Of a stretch of DNA of 53,905 nt, positions 725 through 48,666 are shown one piece after another (position 1 is the stretch's first letter; the number at the start of each line of letters is the position of its first letter). The notes below the pieces were generated by a model, which had not been told where the DNA came from, did no database searches, and worked only from the letters and a program-made list of their open reading frames with translations. The DNA comes from a virus. Position numbers and translations under genes: made by a program. Location of the stretch: positions 1 through 53,905 of the IMG/VR virus record IMGVR_UViG_3300048836_001050; one strand, written 5' to 3'.

Positions 725-1690
725 ATGAAACAAGGCTCGTTTTTTCGTCTGCCCGAAACCACGCGCGACAAGCTGCGCCGGTTGGCCGAGCAGGAACGTC
801 GCACCCAGACTGCACAGGTCGAATATCTCATTGAAAAGGAAGCAGAACGCATTCTGCCCAAGGAGACCCCAGTAAATCGTCAATCGAAAATCGTCAATCG
901 TCAATCCGGTTTCACCCTCATCGAACTTTTGGTCGTCATCGCCATCATAGCGATTCTCGCCGCGATCCTGTTCCCGGTTTTTGCCAGAGCGCGAGAAAAC
1001 GCGCGCCGCGCCAGTTGCCAATCGAACCTGAAGCAGATCGGTTTGGGCATCATGCAATATACGCAGGATTATGATGAGCACACTCCTTTGCGCGATGGTG
1101 CGGCTCCTGGCGACGTGTCGGCTTCCAATCCCTACGGTTGGGCGGATGCGATTCAGCCGTATCTTAAAAGCACGCAGATTTATAAATGCCCCAGCGCAAC
1201 CGGCACCTTTTCCAATGATCCGACACAGGAAGGCTACACGACGTATTTTTACAATACCGGCGTGAATAACATCAGCATGGCGGCGATTGAATATCCTACC
1301 CAAACGCTTTTGAATGGCGACGGCAAGGTTGAAAAATCGCGTCACGCCTCCAATGGCTGCATTACCGGTACCACGAGTACTCCCATCACTGACGCCGACG
1401 CCGGTCAAGCCGGACAGGGTACATGGGGTGTCAGCGGCACGCCCTGCACCAGTGGCGATTTTGACCCAAATAACGCTATCAATTATCTGGGCGCGGCAGG
1501 CGGCGCCGATGCTGCATTTGGCCGCCATCTCGATGGCGCGAATTATAGCTTTGTGGATGGTCATGTGAAGTGGCTTAAAGGCGATCATGTTTCCGGTTCC
1601 GGGTCTGCCATCAATGGTTCAACGAAAATTTATAACGCCAACATCAAGGCCGAAGACGCGGGCGGTAAAGCGACTTTCAGCAGAAATTAG
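725..1690 (+). CDS. RHH-like N-terminus fused to type IV pilin-like DUF1559 protein
   Basis: Residues 1-45 ([18 protein letters not shown]...[10 protein letters not shown]-like) resemble an Arc/CopG ribbon-helix-helix unit. A short repetitive linker follows, then at about residue 62 a prepilin cleavage site and class III hydrophobic helix ([20 protein letters not shown]). The globular part carries an [16 protein letters not shown] segment, [19 protein letters not shown] and an H-x9-DG box near the C-terminus ([12 protein letters not shown]). The pilin part is a bacterial DUF1559/H-X9-DG protein, abundant in Armatimonadota and Planctomycetota, so it is cargo rather than phage structure. A leader of about 60 residues is far longer than normal for a prepilin, so processing by PilD is uncertain. 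The gene is convergent with the methyltransferase gene, and their stop codons overlap at 1687-1690. It is an autonomous (moron-type) unit. Confidence 0.85.
878..906 (+). repeat. Short direct repeats CGTCAATC at the RHH/pilin joint
   Basis: CGTCAATC occurs at 878-885, 892-899 and 899-906, encoding the repetitive linker [12 protein letters not shown]. It sits exactly where the RHH-like segment ends and the pilin signal begins, which suggests a repeat-mediated fusion point. Confidence 0.7.
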
Positions 1691-3409: not shown

Positions 3410-5886
3410 GCTCTTCGATCCATCACAGGCGCGCGCACTTCGCCTGCATCCTCCGGCACCAAAACGCAAATCTCCACCCGCTCGCTCGCCGCGCGCGGCA
3501 GATTCACCAGCTCGTTCCACTTGATTGGCGTGGTGTAGCTGCTCAAATCGTCTCTGGGCGCGTCGCTGTCAATGCGCAGCCACAAGTTCGGAATGACGGC
3601 ACCCGCCGCATGGAGCTTGCGCAAGCGCGTGGTTTCGTCAATATCCGAGACATCCGAAACCTGAATTGCTTCCCAAATGTTGCCGCCGGTTTCCTGCCCC
3701 ACGATGATGTATTTCTGGACGTTCACGCATCCGGCGTTTTCGCAGCGTGGGCGCGGCGGCCAGAAATCGCCGTTCACGCCGCCGTCGTCATACACCGTAA
3801 AACAAAAGTGATCCCAGACATCCGGCGAATACGGGAGACTGGAAACAGGAATCGGGGCGTAGGCGATGGTCGTGCCATCGTCCGTCAGCGCCAGAAACGG
3901 CACACCTTCCGGCTGCGTTTCACTCCGCGTCCAGTAGCCGCCGGCGGGCTGCGCGGCGTCCGCGTTCCATTTCAAAAACGCCGCCAGTTTGTCGGGATCG
4001 AGGCCGCGCGAAACCGCATCGGCGCGCGGGAAAGTAAACGCTTCCCGCAGCTCGTCCCAGTAGGAGCAGACTTTCACGAACTCGCCGCTCAAAGCGATTA
4101 TGCTCCAACTTGCCGACATTTGCGCCACGCCTTCGGCTTCTTCGACGAAGCGCCCGACGCAGTAAATGCGCTCGCTCCCATCTTCCAATGTGCAGCGCGT
4201 CAAACGGCGCGCGCGAAAATTCAAACTCGCGTCGCGCAGCGTTTGCCCGTCCGTGACGGCCCAGATCGCGTTCTCGCTTTGCGCCTCTTTGCCGCAGCAA
4301 ACGAGCTTTTGCCCGCCGGGAATACTCACGCTGCGCAGCCGTTGCCAGCGAGTATCGCTCGCCGCAAACGGCGCGTAATCGAGAGCCGTCCAGCGTCCAT
4401 CACTCATGCGCGCCAGGTACTGCTTTGCCTCTTCATCGCCGAACGGTTCATTTTGCACCCAGCCGTAGTAATCGCCCTGAAAAACTTCCGCGCAGTTGTC
4501 GCCGTGGAAAACCGTGCCGCGCCCGCTGCTGGTGCCTTGTGCCGACAGCGTTTTGAGCGTGTTGTAGAACTGCGCGAATTCGTCGTTGCCGATCGGCGCA
4601 CCCACGCCGCCGAAAAATTCCGTGAACCAGTGCAGGCGCCCTTCAATCTCTCGCAAACAGCGCCCGCCCGGATGCCCGTTCGTCGAGAGCGGCAGGCCGG
4701 GCAGTGCGTCGGCAATCGCAGCAGCGGAATCGTAGCGATGCAGGTGCGAGTGCGTCAGCATCAATTCCGTGCCGTCGCTCAGCGTTCCGCTTGAGCCGCG
4801 TTGCAAAATATCGCTCACGTTGGGATACAGCGACGCCTCGCACACCGGCACAAAATCGTTTTGTGAAATGCCGAGCAACACGGCTTTGGCGGGAGTACTC
4901 GCCTCCGGCGTGAAATGCCAGTAGGCGCTACGCGTGCCGCGCGTGGTGGCGATGGTACCGCCGAGTCGCGCCTCGCCCGCCGTTTCGCCGACTGTCATCA
5001 CGTCAAACGCCGAAACCGAAAGCGCGAGCGGATCAATCAAAACCAGCGTCTTTGTCGTTGTGGTATCGAGCCGGTTCAAAACCGCGCCGGGTGCTGGTTG
5101 AAAACCTTCGCCAACAGCAAACTCATCGCCGCCGACCGCAATCCGCAAAGCCGACCACGGCCCGCCGTCTGCGCCGGCGTCGCCATCGGAGATATATTGC
5201 GACCACGCGCCGACGTGCTGCAAACCGCCGTTGAGCAGCAGCGCGCTGTATTCGTCCCACATGACCGCGCCGGTCAATGACTCCTGCGTTTTGTCGGATG
5301 GCCTGCGCCCCACGTCAGCTTCCCAGTCCCAGATATAGTTTTGTCCGTTTTCCTCATACGAAAAACGCGCGGGAACGCTTTGAAGGCCGCGGACAGATAA
5401 ATAATCCGGCGGCAATGCCCAATCGCGCAGGGCGTTTTCAAGGCGCACCCACAACACCGCGTGAGAAGCAAGCGCCGGCAGTTGGACGGATACGGCGTTT
5501 TGCAAAACATCGAGCAAAAGAGCGCCGCTTGGCGCGTCCTGCAAAATCACGCGCCACTGGCCGCGCGCTTCGATGAAGCCGGGATTGGCGCGCTCCCAGC
5601 GCGCGAGCGGAGTACTCCCGACCAGCACGCGCGCGAGATCGTCATGCCCCATGAACTCGAACTCCGCGCCGTCGAGAGAGAGATTGGCGGCGTGAATCCA
5701 GATCGCGCCCGGCCCGCGCCACCGCCCCTCGTTGTCCGATTCCCACGAGCGTTCGCTCGATTCCCACGCGCTCGGCTGCGCGCCGCAGTACTCCACGCCC
5801 GCGAAGGCAAAACCGTCGAGTGGGAGTACTCCCGTGTTCGGCGGGAAGGTGTGGACGAGTTCGGTATCGAGCAGCGGCTTAGGCAT
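3406..5886 (-). CDS. Large tail-tip/baseplate-associated protein, unknown family
   Basis: This is an 826-residue acidic, beta-rich protein with many Trp/Gly turns and no membrane segment. It shares a TGATG junction with the gene upstream and an ATGA junction with the DUF115-like gene downstream. Its place after the hub and distal-tail genes suggests a tail-tip or receptor-binding component. I recognise no domain. The gene contains at least four copies of the AGTACT palindrome, read as GSTP, GVLP, ASTP and EYC in different frames. Confidence 0.6.
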   Translation of the reverse strand: MPKPLLDTELVHTFPPNTGVLPLDGFAFAGVEYCGAQPSAWESSERSWESDNEGRWRGPGAIWIHAANLSLDGAEFEFMGHDDLARVLVGSTPLARWERANPGFIEARGQWRVILQDAPSGALLLDVLQNAVSVQLPALASHAVLWVRLENALRDWALPPDYLSVRGLQSVPARFSYEENGQNYIWDWEADVGRRPSDKTQESLTGAVMWDEYSALLLNGGLQHVGAWSQYISDGDAGADGGPWSALRIAVGGDEFAVGEGFQPAPGAVLNRLDTTTTKTLVLIDPLALSVSAFDVMTVGETAGEARLGGTIATTRGTRSAYWHFTPEASTPAKAVLLGISQNDFVPVCEASLYPNVSDILQRGSSGTLSDGTELMLTHSHLHRYDSAAAIADALPGLPLSTNGHPGGRCLREIEGRLHWFTEFFGGVGAPIGNDEFAQFYNTLKTLSAQGTSSGRGTVFHGDNCAEVFQGDYYGWVQNEPFGDEEAKQYLARMSDGRWTALDYAPFAASDTRWQRLRSVSIPGGQKLVCCGKEAQSENAIWAVTDGQTLRDASLNFRARRLTRCTLEDGSERIYCVGRFVEEAEGVAQMSASWSIIALSGEFVKVCSYWDELREAFTFPRADAVSRGLDPDKLAAFLKWNADAAQPAGGYWTRSETQPEGVPFLALTDDGTTIAYAPIPVSSLPYSPDVWDHFCFTVYDDGGVNGDFWPPRPRCENAGCVNVQKYIIVGQETGGNIWEAIQVSDVSDIDETTRLRKLHAAGAVIPNLWLRIDSDAPRDDLSSYTTPIKWNELVNLPRAASERVEICVLVPEDAGEVRAPVMDRRA

Positions 5887-16641: not shown

Positions 16642-17166
16642 TTATTTCAACAGCTCGCGGATTTTCTTGACGGTTGCCGGGCCGATACTGGGCAACGCTT
16701 CCAAATCCTTGTCGCTCGCCGCCGCCACCGCATCGAGCGTGTCGTAACCGGCGGCGGTCAGGCTTTCGAGCACGTCACCGCCCAGCGATTCCAATGCGAC
16801 CAGAGGCGGCGTGTGCGTGTCCGGCTGCAACACTGGCGCGCTTTTGAGAACGTCCAGTTCGGCGCGGGCTTGGTCGCGCTCCTGAATCAGACGCACGATG
16901 AACTGCTGGCCGTCTTCTTCGCTGTGGCGCTCAATGCCCAACTGCCCGGAAACAATGGCGGCGACGGCTTCAAAAGCATCCGGATACGGTGCGCCGGGAG
17001 TACTCCCACCTTCGCCGCTCACATCCCACTCGCCTTCGATGAGGCCGCGCGCTTGCAGGCTGTCATGAAGCGCGGGCGTCAGCACGGCGGCAAACGCAGC
17101 CTCGTCGCCTGGCTTATAAGTTTCGGTGCCATGCCGCAGGCCGGTTAAAATTTTCGGTTCGTTCAT
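16642..17166 (-). CDS. Head-region protein with C-terminal helix-hairpin-helix
   Basis: This 174-residue protein has an N-terminal part resembling short capsid-adjacent proteins (LRHGTETYKPGDEAAFAAVL) and a C-terminal HhH unit at about residues 130-174: LTAAGYDTLDAVAAASDKDL then LPSIGPATVKKIREL. HhH hairpins bind DNA backbone non-specifically. It follows the major capsid gene, so a role at the head-tail interface is plausible. It carries a full GGGAGTACTCCC palindrome, read as GGSTPG. Confidence 0.65.
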   Translation of the reverse strand: MNEPKILTGLRHGTETYKPGDEAAFAAVLTPALHDSLQARGLIEGEWDVSGEGGSTPGAPYPDAFEAVAAIVSGQLGIERHSEEDGQQFIVRLIQERDQARAELDVLKSAPVLQPDTHTPPLVALESLGGDVLESLTAAGYDTLDAVAAASDKDLEALPSIGPATVKKIRELLK

Positions 17167-33166: not shown

Positions 33167-33268
33167 TCACTCGACCACTCCACAACGCCTCGACCACTCC
33201 ACAACGCGCAGTAGCCCCCACACCAGCGTCGATAGCAAAGCGATGAGTACTCCCAGTAGCTCGCGCAT
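33167..33268 (-). CDS. Possible 33-aa membrane microprotein
   Basis: An ATG at 33268 opens a frame beginning MRELLGVLIALLSTLVWGLL and ending in an Arg-rich tail. It would be a single transmembrane helix upstream of the holin-like gene. No convincing RBS is seen, and the 3' half overlaps a 19-nt tandem repeat, so this may be chance. Confidence 0.3.
   Translation of the reverse strand: MRELLGVLIALLSTLVWGLLRVVEWSRRCGVVE
33171..33208. repeat. 19-nt tandem repeat, two copies
   Basis: The unit TCGACCACTCCACAACGC(C/G) occurs at 33171-33189 and 33190-33208. It lies between terminators and the first late gene, where a late promoter would be expected. It may be a regulatory site; no clear promoter was recognised in 33209-33284. 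Confidence 0.6.
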
Positions 33269-33284
33269 GACAACAGGGTAAATC

Positions 33285-33316
33285 AAAAGGTGCGGGAATT
33301 TCATCCCGCACCTTTT
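33285..33316. terminator. Strong bidirectional terminator
   Basis: A perfect 13-bp stem, AAAAGGTGCGGGA (33285-33297) and TCCCGCACCTTTT (33304-33316), encloses a 6-nt loop. T and A tracts on both sides make it work in either direction. It ends the leftward early/cassette transcript before the late block. Confidence 0.85.
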
Positions 33317-33326
33317 CGGACAGACA

Positions 33327-33362
33327 AAAAGCCACCGCAGAATTAAATCTGTGGTGGCTTTT
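33327..33362. terminator. Second strong terminator in tandem
   Basis: The stem AAAAGCCACCGCAGA (33327-33341) pairs with TCTGTGGTGGCTTTT (33348-33362), with one G-T wobble and a 6-nt loop. With the neighbouring terminator it forms a double block between cassettes and late genes. Confidence 0.85.
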
Positions 33363-33395: not shown

Positions 33396-33490
33396 GTTCA
33401 ACACTTAGCTCACCCGCGCCCCGCCACGAAGCCTAACAGTTACCCGAAAAGCCGCGCGGCGGGGTGTCGGTGTGCAGCGCCTTGTTAGCC
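33396..33490 (-). other. attC-like recombination site 1
   Basis: Read on the minus strand, the ends are GGCTAAC (near RYYYAAC) and GTTGAAC (GTTRRRY). In between, GCTGCAC...CCCCGCC pairs with GGCGGGG...GTGAGC, leaving an unpaired G, the extrahelical base typical of folded integron attC sites. The TAA stop of the 72-aa gene lies inside the first box, as in real gene cassettes. Confidence 0.65.
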
Positions 33491-33703
33491 CGCAGTTTCA
33501 AGAGTTGCGCGCCCCTTTTCTGTGACGAAGTAACTGCCCGTGCGATACGAATCCGCCAAGCCGCGCCGTTGCAACGCCCGCGCCGCGCTCAACCATTTCG
33601 CCATGCCGTAACCCGCAACCTGACGGCCACACTGGTCTGCGCCCAGCCACTTCAACAACTTTTGCTGATGTTTCGACAATTCCTCAAATTTGATTTCATC
33701 CAT
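33485..33703 (-). CDS. Cassette ORF 1, winged-helix-like small protein
   Basis: This 72-residue protein (MDEIKFEELSKHQQKLLKWL..., ending YFVTEKGRATLETAG) has the 'helix, helix, vTekGraxL' pattern of small winged-helix proteins. Its ATG follows the GTTAGGC box of the neighbouring attC by about 30 nt, and its stop is inside attC 1. One ORF per cassette is the integron pattern. Function unknown. Confidence 0.6.
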   Translation of the reverse strand: MDEIKFEELSKHQQKLLKWLGADQCGRQVAGYGMAKWLSAARALQRRGLADSYRTGSYFVTEKGRATLETAG

Positions 33704-33731
33704 TTTGGTTCCCACCAAGCCGCGCGCAGCG

Positions 33732-33829
33732 GCCTAACGCCGAACTCACCCGCCGAAACAGCGCCCGGATTGTTCCGCCTGCTGTAAAGTATCTGCGCTG
33801 TTTCGGTCGGGTGCAGTGGTTTGTTAAGC
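33732..33829 (-). other. attC-like recombination site 2
   Basis: Read on the minus strand, the site runs from GCTTAAC (RYYYAAC) to GTTAGGC (GTTRRRY). CACTGCACCCGACCGAAACA and its partner TGTTTCGGCGGGTGAGT form a long imperfect stem with an extra G and an extra A on one strand. This matches the folded attC structure with extrahelical bases. Length 98 bp with an unstructured central loop. Confidence 0.75.
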
Positions 33830-34039
33830 CGCTGTTAATCGGTTTTGGGCGTGATATTTCTCCAACCACACCCACTCGTTTCTGATTTCGATGAGCCGCT
33901 CTGTGATGTCAAGGGGTAAACGGAACTCGTCACCCATTGCCGTTTCCGGCAGCGCATCATTACATTTCAAGACCAAGTTGATGGCTGTGTCCAGCGCGTC
34001 AATCGCCTTGATTTCCTCCCGTGTCAATTCATCTTCCAT
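33824..34039 (-). CDS. Cassette ORF 2, small acidic protein
   Basis: This 71-residue protein (MEDELTREEIKAIDALDTAI..., WVWLEKYHAQNRLTAA) starts at the ATG at 34039 with AGGAG 7 nt upstream. Its TAA lies within the GCTTAAC box of attC 2. The leader after the upstream GTTAAGC box (34078-34084) is CGCAGCGCGCGGCTTGG, nearly the same as the leader of cassette 1. Function unknown. Confidence 0.6.
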   Translation of the reverse strand: MEDELTREEIKAIDALDTAINLVLKCNDALPETAMGDEFRLPLDITERLIEIRNEWVWLEKYHAQNRLTAA

Positions 34040-34077
34040 TCGATTCTCCTTTGCGCCCAACCAAGCCGCGCGCTGCG

Positions 34078-34127
34078 GCTTAACAATGTGTTATACCGCA
34101 AAATATGGCAGTTTTGCGGTATAACAC
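34078..34127. promoter_or_regulatory. Cassette boundary box plus perfect 16-bp inverted repeat
   Basis: GCTTAAC at 34078-34084 is the complement of a GTTRRRY recombination box and starts cassette 2. Immediately beside it, GTGTTATACCGCAAAA (34088-34103) and its exact complement (34112-34127) are separated by 8 nt. No T-run follows on either strand, so an operator or recombination site is more likely than a terminator. The Xre gene ends 15 nt away. Confidence 0.55.
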
Positions 34128-34141
34128 CGCTATGTCGGAAA

Positions 34142-34414
34142 TTACCGCAAATGTTCCAGAATCCCGGCCTGAAATATTTTCAGCGGGGTCACATCGGGTG
34201 GCAGCAATTCCGCCAGCGCGAACATTTCGTCGCTTTCGCGCTGGTCGAGTTTCAAGTATCGCACATACGCCGTCAGCACAGAAACCGGCGGGCGCAGGCG
34301 GTCATTTTCATATTTTGACAACGTGCTGTTGTCGTAGCGCGTCCGCCGCGCCATCTCACGCAGGCCGATATTTTTTGCTTTGCGTTTTTCGCGCAGATAT
34401 TGTCCCAGTGTCAT
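34142..34414 (-). CDS. Xre-family HTH regulator
   Basis: This 90-residue protein has a clear Xre/Cro HTH: LGQYLREKRKAKNIGLREMA, then RRTRYDNSTLSKYENDRLRP. It is the last gene of the early operon before the cassettes. The 16-bp inverted repeat 15 nt beyond its stop is a candidate binding site. It probably binds DNA to control phage genes. Confidence 0.8.
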   Translation of the reverse strand: MTLGQYLREKRKAKNIGLREMARRTRYDNSTLSKYENDRLRPPVSVLTAYVRYLKLDQRESDEMFALAELLPPDVTPLKIFQAGILEHLR

Positions 34415-34424
34415 GTCGCGTTCC

Positions 34425-35192
34425 TCAAAAACTCACTTTGAAAAATCCCAACTGCCCACGCAGTGGCCTAAAAGCCAGCGGCTGCGCGTCTTCGATCACG
34501 AAGCCATACGGTCCGAAAAACCAATCCGATTCCGAATCGTCCACGCAATCCACGATTCGCGCTCGACCGACGATGCCGCCCAACTCGAACTCGTTTTTGT
34601 TCGGTATCTGCAAGCGAACGCTCGGCTCGCACCATTCCTGCAACGAGCGGTAGCCGTCGGCGTCAAAACTTTTTCCGGCATGGATGAAAAACTCACCGCG
34701 AAAGCGCGTCGGCCAGGTGCGATTTTCGACATCCTTGAATCCGTTGGCTATGAGCCAAGCCCACGGCTGGCGGATACTGAGCACCACGCCGGAATGCGCG
34801 GTGGCGACCTTCGGCCATTCTAACTCCTGCGTTTCCACCCCGCGCTCGTGGAATAATTCCGCACAAACGCGCCGGTGACAATGGGAGTACTCCCGGCAGC
34901 CGCACAACAAAATCACGTTGTGCGTTTCCAGCAGCTTGAAAACTTTCAGCAATCCGCGTGGTGCATCGGCTAATTTAATTGCGCCGCCTTTGTAATGGAG
35001 ATTGCCCCATTCCGGCAGCGGGCAATAACGCGCTGCGCCCAGCACGCGAAACAAATTATCTTCGTTCCACTCAAACATTCGAGAGCGGCGCATATGGCGA
35101 ATATCCAAAACCAGTGCATCAATTTTCTCAGCGGCTTGCTTCAGTTGTTCGGGCGTGTGCCCGGAATATCCACAGGTGTAGATGTTGTTCAT
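34425..35192 (-). CDS. DUF488 + ASCH fusion protein
   Basis: This 255-residue protein has an N-terminal DUF488 domain (about 1-135: IYTCGYSGHTPEQLKQ, VILLCGCREYSHCHRRVCAE). A C-terminal ASCH domain follows (about 140-255: VVLSIRQPWAWLIANGFKDV, ENRTWPTRFRGEFFIHAGKS). ASCH/PUA-like folds bind modified bases or RNA; DUF488 proteins carry a conserved Cys-rich site. Fusion of the two next to a cytosine methyltransferase suggests nucleic-acid modification or reading. The role is inferred. Confidence 0.8.
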   Translation of the reverse strand: MNNIYTCGYSGHTPEQLKQAAEKIDALVLDIRHMRRSRMFEWNEDNLFRVLGAARYCPLPEWGNLHYKGGAIKLADAPRGLLKVFKLLETHNVILLCGCREYSHCHRRVCAELFHERGVETQELEWPKVATAHSGVVLSIRQPWAWLIANGFKDVENRTWPTRFRGEFFIHAGKSFDADGYRSLQEWCEPSVRLQIPNKNEFELGGIVGRARIVDCVDDSESDWFFGPYGFVIEDAQPLAFRPLRGQLGFFKVSF

Positions 35193-48048: not shown

Positions 48049-48666
48049 ATGTCCGCCCCCGCCTGCGATTATTATCCCGATCCGCCGGTATGCGGTTACG
48101 AACCGGAGTACTCCCGACCTGCGGATTTATCGTGGATGAAAAGTTGCCTAAAGACGCAACATCGGCCTCGGGTGATACATCGGTCTCAGCCGCAACCTCG
48201 GGCCGGAGCAGAGCGGTCGTTGGGAAGCACTCCGCTTTTCCTCGTGCCGCACAGCAGCGCGGCTAACGGGCTGCGCGAAGAGTTTGCGCCGCCGTCGTTA
48301 ACCGTCATCGCGGGCGGAAAAACCGCCCAAATGAAAGCCCTGGTGGAAGAACCGCGACGCGACGGTGTGGCCGTGGTGGTGGAGTGCGCGGCGGAGCTGG
48401 AGTGGGTGTGCCAGGTGTTCAAGCTGGAAGCCAACGAGCGGGCGATTTTGGACGTGGAGCCGCACCTGCGCCGCGTGACGCGCGCAGCCAATCAGCTCAC
48501 GCGCGAAGCCGCACGCGTACGGCGCAAGCAATTAATGAACGAATCTGACGATAGTTTGTTTTTGGAATTGGAGATGAACAACTCCAATGAGCACTCTGTG
48601 CGGATTCCAGTGTTTAACAATCTGGACGCTGCTGTCGAATACCTGAAGCGGCGGCGCGAGAGATAA
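48049..48666 (+). CDS. Unknown rightward protein (205 aa)
   Basis: A Pro/Tyr-rich N-terminus is followed by an alpha/beta part (PSLTVIAGGKTAQMKALVEE, VAVVVECAAELEWVCQVF) and a helical end (NNLDAAVEYLKRRRER). It follows the RHH gene by 14 nt. A GGAGTACTCCC palindrome near the start is read as EYS. No family recognised. Confidence 0.5.
   Translation: MSAPACDYYPDPPVCGYEPEYSRPADLSWMKSCLKTQHRPRVIHRSQPQPRAGAERSLGSTPLFLVPHSSAANGLREEFAPPSLTVIAGGKTAQMKALVEEPRRDGVAVVVECAAELEWVCQVFKLEANERAILDVEPHLRRVTRAANQLTREAARVRRKQLMNESDDSLFLELEMNNSNEHSVRIPVFNNLDAAVEYLKRRRER

Follow-up and report, generated by a model that had tools for sequence, protein, structure and literature searches.

Arrays of at least two attC sites with no intI gene nearby (CALINs) have been described in phages by Qi et al. 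(2023; PMC9892861), and IntI1 recombined phage-borne attC sites in the laboratory (Qi et al., 2023; PMC9892861). Phage CALINs are therefore not new as a class (PMC9892861). Sedentary chromosomal integron arrays (such as our training loci L138, L143 and L149) share the attC anatomy described below and the pairing of each R'' box with the start box of its own cassette, whereas the locus presented here has no intI, no recognisable attI and two cassettes only. A third point of comparison is insertion at attG (Loot et al., 2024, Nat Microbiol 9:228-240); as described in papers that cite this work, these insertions are likewise cassettes outside an integron with a border at an IntI-type crossover point, but with two or more cassettes plus half of a third attC our locus is not a single clean insertion. 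In comparison with the phage CALINs of Qi et al., we have an unrelated phage, a visibly truncated array and a 35-nt leader common to two cassettes.

The DNA analysed here (the window) is a whole IMG/VR virus record of 53,905 bases, classed as linear. Our reading, to which we give a probability of about 0.88, is that it carries a CALIN: a truncated piece of a cassette array, made up of two full cassettes plus a third attC site of which only the left half is present, in a phage or provirus genome between early and lysis/late genes. The record may be a fragment, and the CALIN assignment applies to the record as it stands.

Two attC sites on the minus strand

An earlier note on this DNA had placed attC-type boxes around two small ORFs, and both sites are on the minus strand as described there. 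attC1 (33829-33732) has the layout GCTTAAC-AAACC-ACT[G]CACCCG[A]CCGAAACAGCGC...GCGCTGTTTCGGCGGGTGAGT-TCGGC-GTTAGGC and attC2 (33490-33396) the layout GGCTAAC-AAGGC-GCT[G]CAC...GTGAGC-TAAGT-GTTGAAC. Each has R''/R' boxes with the invariant AAC and GTT, L''/L' arms and spacers of 5 nt, within the 5-6 nt expected of attC, and the R'' box of attC2 is off at one position. The boxes had been written as RYYYAAC/GTTRRRY; the anatomy stands and has the support of our model, but GGCTAAC departs from strict RYYYAAC in having G at the second position. The extra G in the paired arms was correctly recognised: it is the first extra base, it is at the canonical place in both sites, and the GAC follows at an offset of 5 in attC1 and 6 in attC2, both of which occur in the training set. 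The two extrahelical bases of attC1 are canonically spaced. attC2 is less regular, with one additional A in L'' as well as the deviant R'' and mismatches within both the R and the L arms, and given these irregularities it may work poorly.

We scored the window with a covariance model (R1) of 21 attC sites from integrase-linked integrons of Pseudomonadota, none of them taken from the window, in which the R and L pairs were included. The source arrays lie next to integron integrases of family TIGR02249 in Pseudomonadota genomes; 91.9% of cells in the alignment pair, as against 22-48% when the partners are slid. The earlier note had named an attC covariance model as the check to be made, and with our own model the sites pass it: R1 matches attC1 with 47.7 bits (E=4.5e-9) and attC2 with 32.7 bits (E=1.5e-5), the next-best match in the window being 14.6 bits. 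In a joint R1 search of ~0.95 Mb the two sites rank among the true (IntI-linked) integron sites, and 22 terminase-related phage loci in the same search gave no match at E<=1.

The simple box/stem finder gave attC1 a score of 51, compared with 46 or less in 20 dinucleotide shuffles. attC2 was not reported by the looser box/stem finder at its cut-off, strict RYYYAAC/GTTRRRY rules fail to recover it, and the Rfam search returned no match. Folding of the re-closed bottom strand gave -30.5 kcal/mol for attC1 and -20.5 kcal/mol for attC2. A single genome-wide scan with an attC pattern was too strict and yielded one bacterial site. Similar boxes do occur elsewhere, a point on which the earlier claim had been made to depend, since three viral loci (L083, L086 and L087) and one bacterial locus (L091) share the core CTGCAC..GAC..GGTGAG.

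Two units that behave as gene cassettes

The mobile form of a cassette is a circle, and R'' should therefore match the start box of its own cassette and not the box that follows in the array. Of 54 bacterial cassettes, 94% have an R'' that is fully complementary to the own start box, and 18.5% have one that is fully complementary to the following box. Cassette 1 (346 bp; 33738..34083, minus strand) runs from TTAAGC through the G of attC1's R', and cassette 2 (336 bp; 33402..33737, minus strand) has the corresponding limits, TTRRRY and the G of the R' that comes next. The R'' box of cassette 1 pairs at 7/7 positions with its own start box, GTTAAGC (34084-34078), of which it is the exact reverse complement, a match overlooked by the earlier note; with the following box it pairs at 6/7. 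For cassette 2 the values are 6/7 with the own start box and 4/7 with the following box. With this better pairing to their own boxes, the two units behave as cassettes.

There is one ORF in each cassette, running along the attC direction, and the TAA stop of each is inside R'', as had been claimed. The cassette-1 ORF (71 aa; 33824..34039, minus strand) has AAAGGAG before its ATG, and the cassette-2 ORF (72 aa; 33485..33703, minus strand) encodes a putatively winged-helix-like protein. The leaders had been called nearly the same, and that of cassette 2 (33704-33738, minus strand) is 83% identical over 35 nt to that of cassette 1 (34050-34084, minus strand). Copies of the leader sequence elsewhere in IMG/VR have no adjacent attC and resemble ordinary coding sequence.

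The cassette-1 protein is predicted to be all-helical (mean pLDDT of the structure model 79), and family searches with it gave no match. The cassette-2 protein has a winged-helix-like order of elements in a weak, low-confidence structure model. Searches with it recovered a single relative, a hypothetical protein from Luteibacter phage Pluto (45% identity across 64 aa, E=6e-5), and no attC was found near the gene for that relative. There were no matches to the cassette-2 protein in 398 Pseudomonadota genomes; for the cassette proteins generally there were none in plasmids and a single record in phages, and the cassette DNA matched nothing in phages or plasmids. The two small genes run in the same direction as their neighbours, with two terminator-like hairpins after them, and probably serve the phage as accessory genes.

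The genome around the array

The record has genes for the large and small terminase, a tape-measure protein, the major capsid protein, an endolysin, a replication initiator, a Mu Gam-like protein and two DNA methyltransferases. Upstream of the array there is a gene for a Cro/C1-type HTH regulator (34142..34414, minus strand; family match), together with genes for a DUF488 protein, a C5 methyltransferase and the replication initiator. Downstream there are two terminator-like hairpins and then the endolysin gene. The earlier placement of the array between the early operon and the late terminators is thus right in outline. The absence of intI was also borne out: there is no tyrosine recombinase domain in the record at E<=1, and this is not a complete integron. 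With R1 matches to attC, no such recombinase and phage genes on both sides, the earlier description of a CALIN carried by a phage holds.

No DNA relatives of the 29.0-53.9 kb part of the record were found in the phage collection, and a 76%-identical relative of the large terminase gene is found only in a 4.1-kb contig. Prepilin-like DUF1559 proteins with an H-X9-DG motif are typical of PVC bacteria. There is one such gene, with an H-X9-DG C-terminus, at the left end of the record (725-1690, plus strand). The phage is possibly one of a PVC host, and Verrucomicrobiota and Planctomycetota are known to have integrons (PMC8618304). With this host-type gene at its left end, the record may represent a provirus flanked by host DNA, and if it does, the cassettes may have a bacterial history. 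The same gene, and the bacterial flanks that it makes possible, could be taken to mean that the stretch is not phage DNA but a piece of bacterial chromosome or an assembly join. We consider this very unlikely, because the cassettes are ~32 kb inside the record with phage genes in the same orientation on either side and the base composition shows no break around them.

The record has a further repeated feature. The palindrome GGAGTACTCC (with at most one mismatch) is present in 39 copies, against 0.4 expected, across the whole record (for example at 131-140, 598-607, 5609-5618, 16997-17006, 34884-34893 and 48105-48114). AGTACT is present in 45 copies in the record and eight in the 4.1-kb sister contig L001. 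GGAGTACTCC is missing from 182 of the 183 other loci, and has the appearance of a highly iterated palindrome belonging to this lineage, much as HIP1 does to cyanobacteria.

The array is truncated on the right

The GTTGAAC box that forms R' of attC2 doubles as R'' of a third site and continues directly into AAATCGCTGCAACCGAC. This left half (R''-L''; GTTGAACAAATCGCTGCAACCGAC; 33402-33379, minus strand) was overlooked by the earlier note. In a search with a left-half position weight matrix trained on 25 of 37 bacterial attC sites, the stretch 33398-33379 is the top half-site of the window with 24.9 bits, the left half of attC1 scoring 21.1, and none of ~2.4 million background positions reaches 24.9 bits. 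No matching right half follows. What comes next is the first terminator-like hairpin, found by an inverted-repeat scan directly downstream of the array (33327..33362), and then the second (33285..33316), a 13-bp perfect stem with an A tract before it and a T tract after it; neither is assigned to a strand. A left half with no right half means that the array is truncated on this side. Beyond the hairpins there is an exact tandem duplication of 19 nt at 33170-33207 (CTCGACCACTCCACAACGC).

As the region is rich in hairpins, the attC-like elements might be ordinary phage terminators or regulatory hairpins with a chance resemblance to attC. This is extremely improbable in view of the E values of the two R1 matches, which have no counterpart in the 22 terminase-related phage loci, and of the third half-site with no match in the background, the own-box pairing and the extrahelical bases.

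The left border and the route of entry

At the left border there is a core, GTATAAC-ACATT-GTTAAGC (34078..34096, minus strand), of two inverted boxes 5 nt apart, in which G|TTAAGC is the start of cassette 1. Just past the HTH gene there is a perfect inverted repeat of 16 bp around an 8-nt loop (34088..34127, with no strand assigned) whose arms carry GTTATAC and GTATAAC; the outer arm, which ends in GTATAAC, supplies the first box of the core. No other perfect short-loop inverted repeat of the window is longer, and only 4 nt separate it from the start of cassette 1. In loci L144 and L148, GTATAAC and GTTATAC are R boxes of true attC sites. On the strength of its sequence the box pair may be an attI/attG-like receptor, and the palindrome may simply belong to the upstream HTH gene. 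When the array is removed, the joined flanks read GTATAACACATTG|TTGAACAAATCG, an inverted box pair 5 nt apart that ends in a valid GTTGAAC.

These features bear on how the array arose. It may have been built in place, a host integrase having inserted the cassettes singly at a phage attI/attG-like receptor, GTATAAC-ACATT-G|TTGAAC, beside the 16-bp palindrome, so that the phage would carry its own landing site. The exact cassette-1 start so close to the palindrome and the structure of the joined flanks argue for this, as does a phage CALIN of Qi et al. (PMC9892861), which adjoins a terminator hairpin with inverted boxes of the GTTRRRY type, a likeness to our locus. On the other hand, an empty receptor would have no need of an attC half, and the right flank is one. 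No empty-site relative was found: the search through the neighbouring genes gave none, the 251-aa gene having no relatives and the DUF488 gene only partly similar ones. We regard building in place as possible but unlikely. The more general idea of a palindrome-linked, attI-like landing site in a phage, outside any integron, where host integrases drop cassettes, is doubtful; if it were true, the phage would sample the host cassette pool without an integrase of its own.

For the truncated CALIN we infer recombination in trans, expression of the cassettes and a route of entry, as follows. The attC sites would fold as single bottom strands and the integrase of a host integron, supplied in trans, would recognise the folded sites, which would allow cassettes to leave the phage genome by excision or to be captured from it. 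IntI could have inserted the array at the attI/attG-like left-hand core, or the array could have entered as a captured fragment whose third cassette was lost by illegitimate recombination. Entry by capture of a fragment is favoured because the third half-site is present.

attC sites on other phage-gene contigs

Pattern scans of IMG/VR led to further records in which R1 matches and phage genes occur together. Four of them (G003, G006, G007 and L171) have, like the window, attC sites on contigs with phage genes, but their phages are different from ours. G003 (L157 and L158; IMG/VR 3300048583_000185) has genes for a capsid and a portal, an integron integrase (417 bits) and two attC sites, and may hold a complete integron, within or next to a phage. 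G006 (L159-L161; IMG/VR 3300027740_000026) has genes for a portal, a capsid, an internal virion protein, a helicase and a primase, and several attC model matches on both strands in its first 20 kb. G007 (L163; IMG/VR 3300026518_000031) has terminase, portal and DnaB genes and an attC array of five matches at L163:11008-12755. Finally, there are seven attC model matches at E<=1, three of them strong, at L171:1-3152 beside Mu-like baseplate genes, and this array may be host flank.

Significance

Integron cassettes have already been reported in other phages but not in a phage like this one, which is unrelated at the DNA level to the phage records compared. The locus is a well-supported addition to a short list of cassette-carrying phages. 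R1 also detects attC on several further phage-gene contigs of IMG/VR, and the number of such phages known so far is therefore probably an underestimate. That phages carry cassettes has a bearing on how cassettes move between bacteria, and the truncated third site, with a palindrome at the opposite border, has a bearing on how cassette arrays enter phages.
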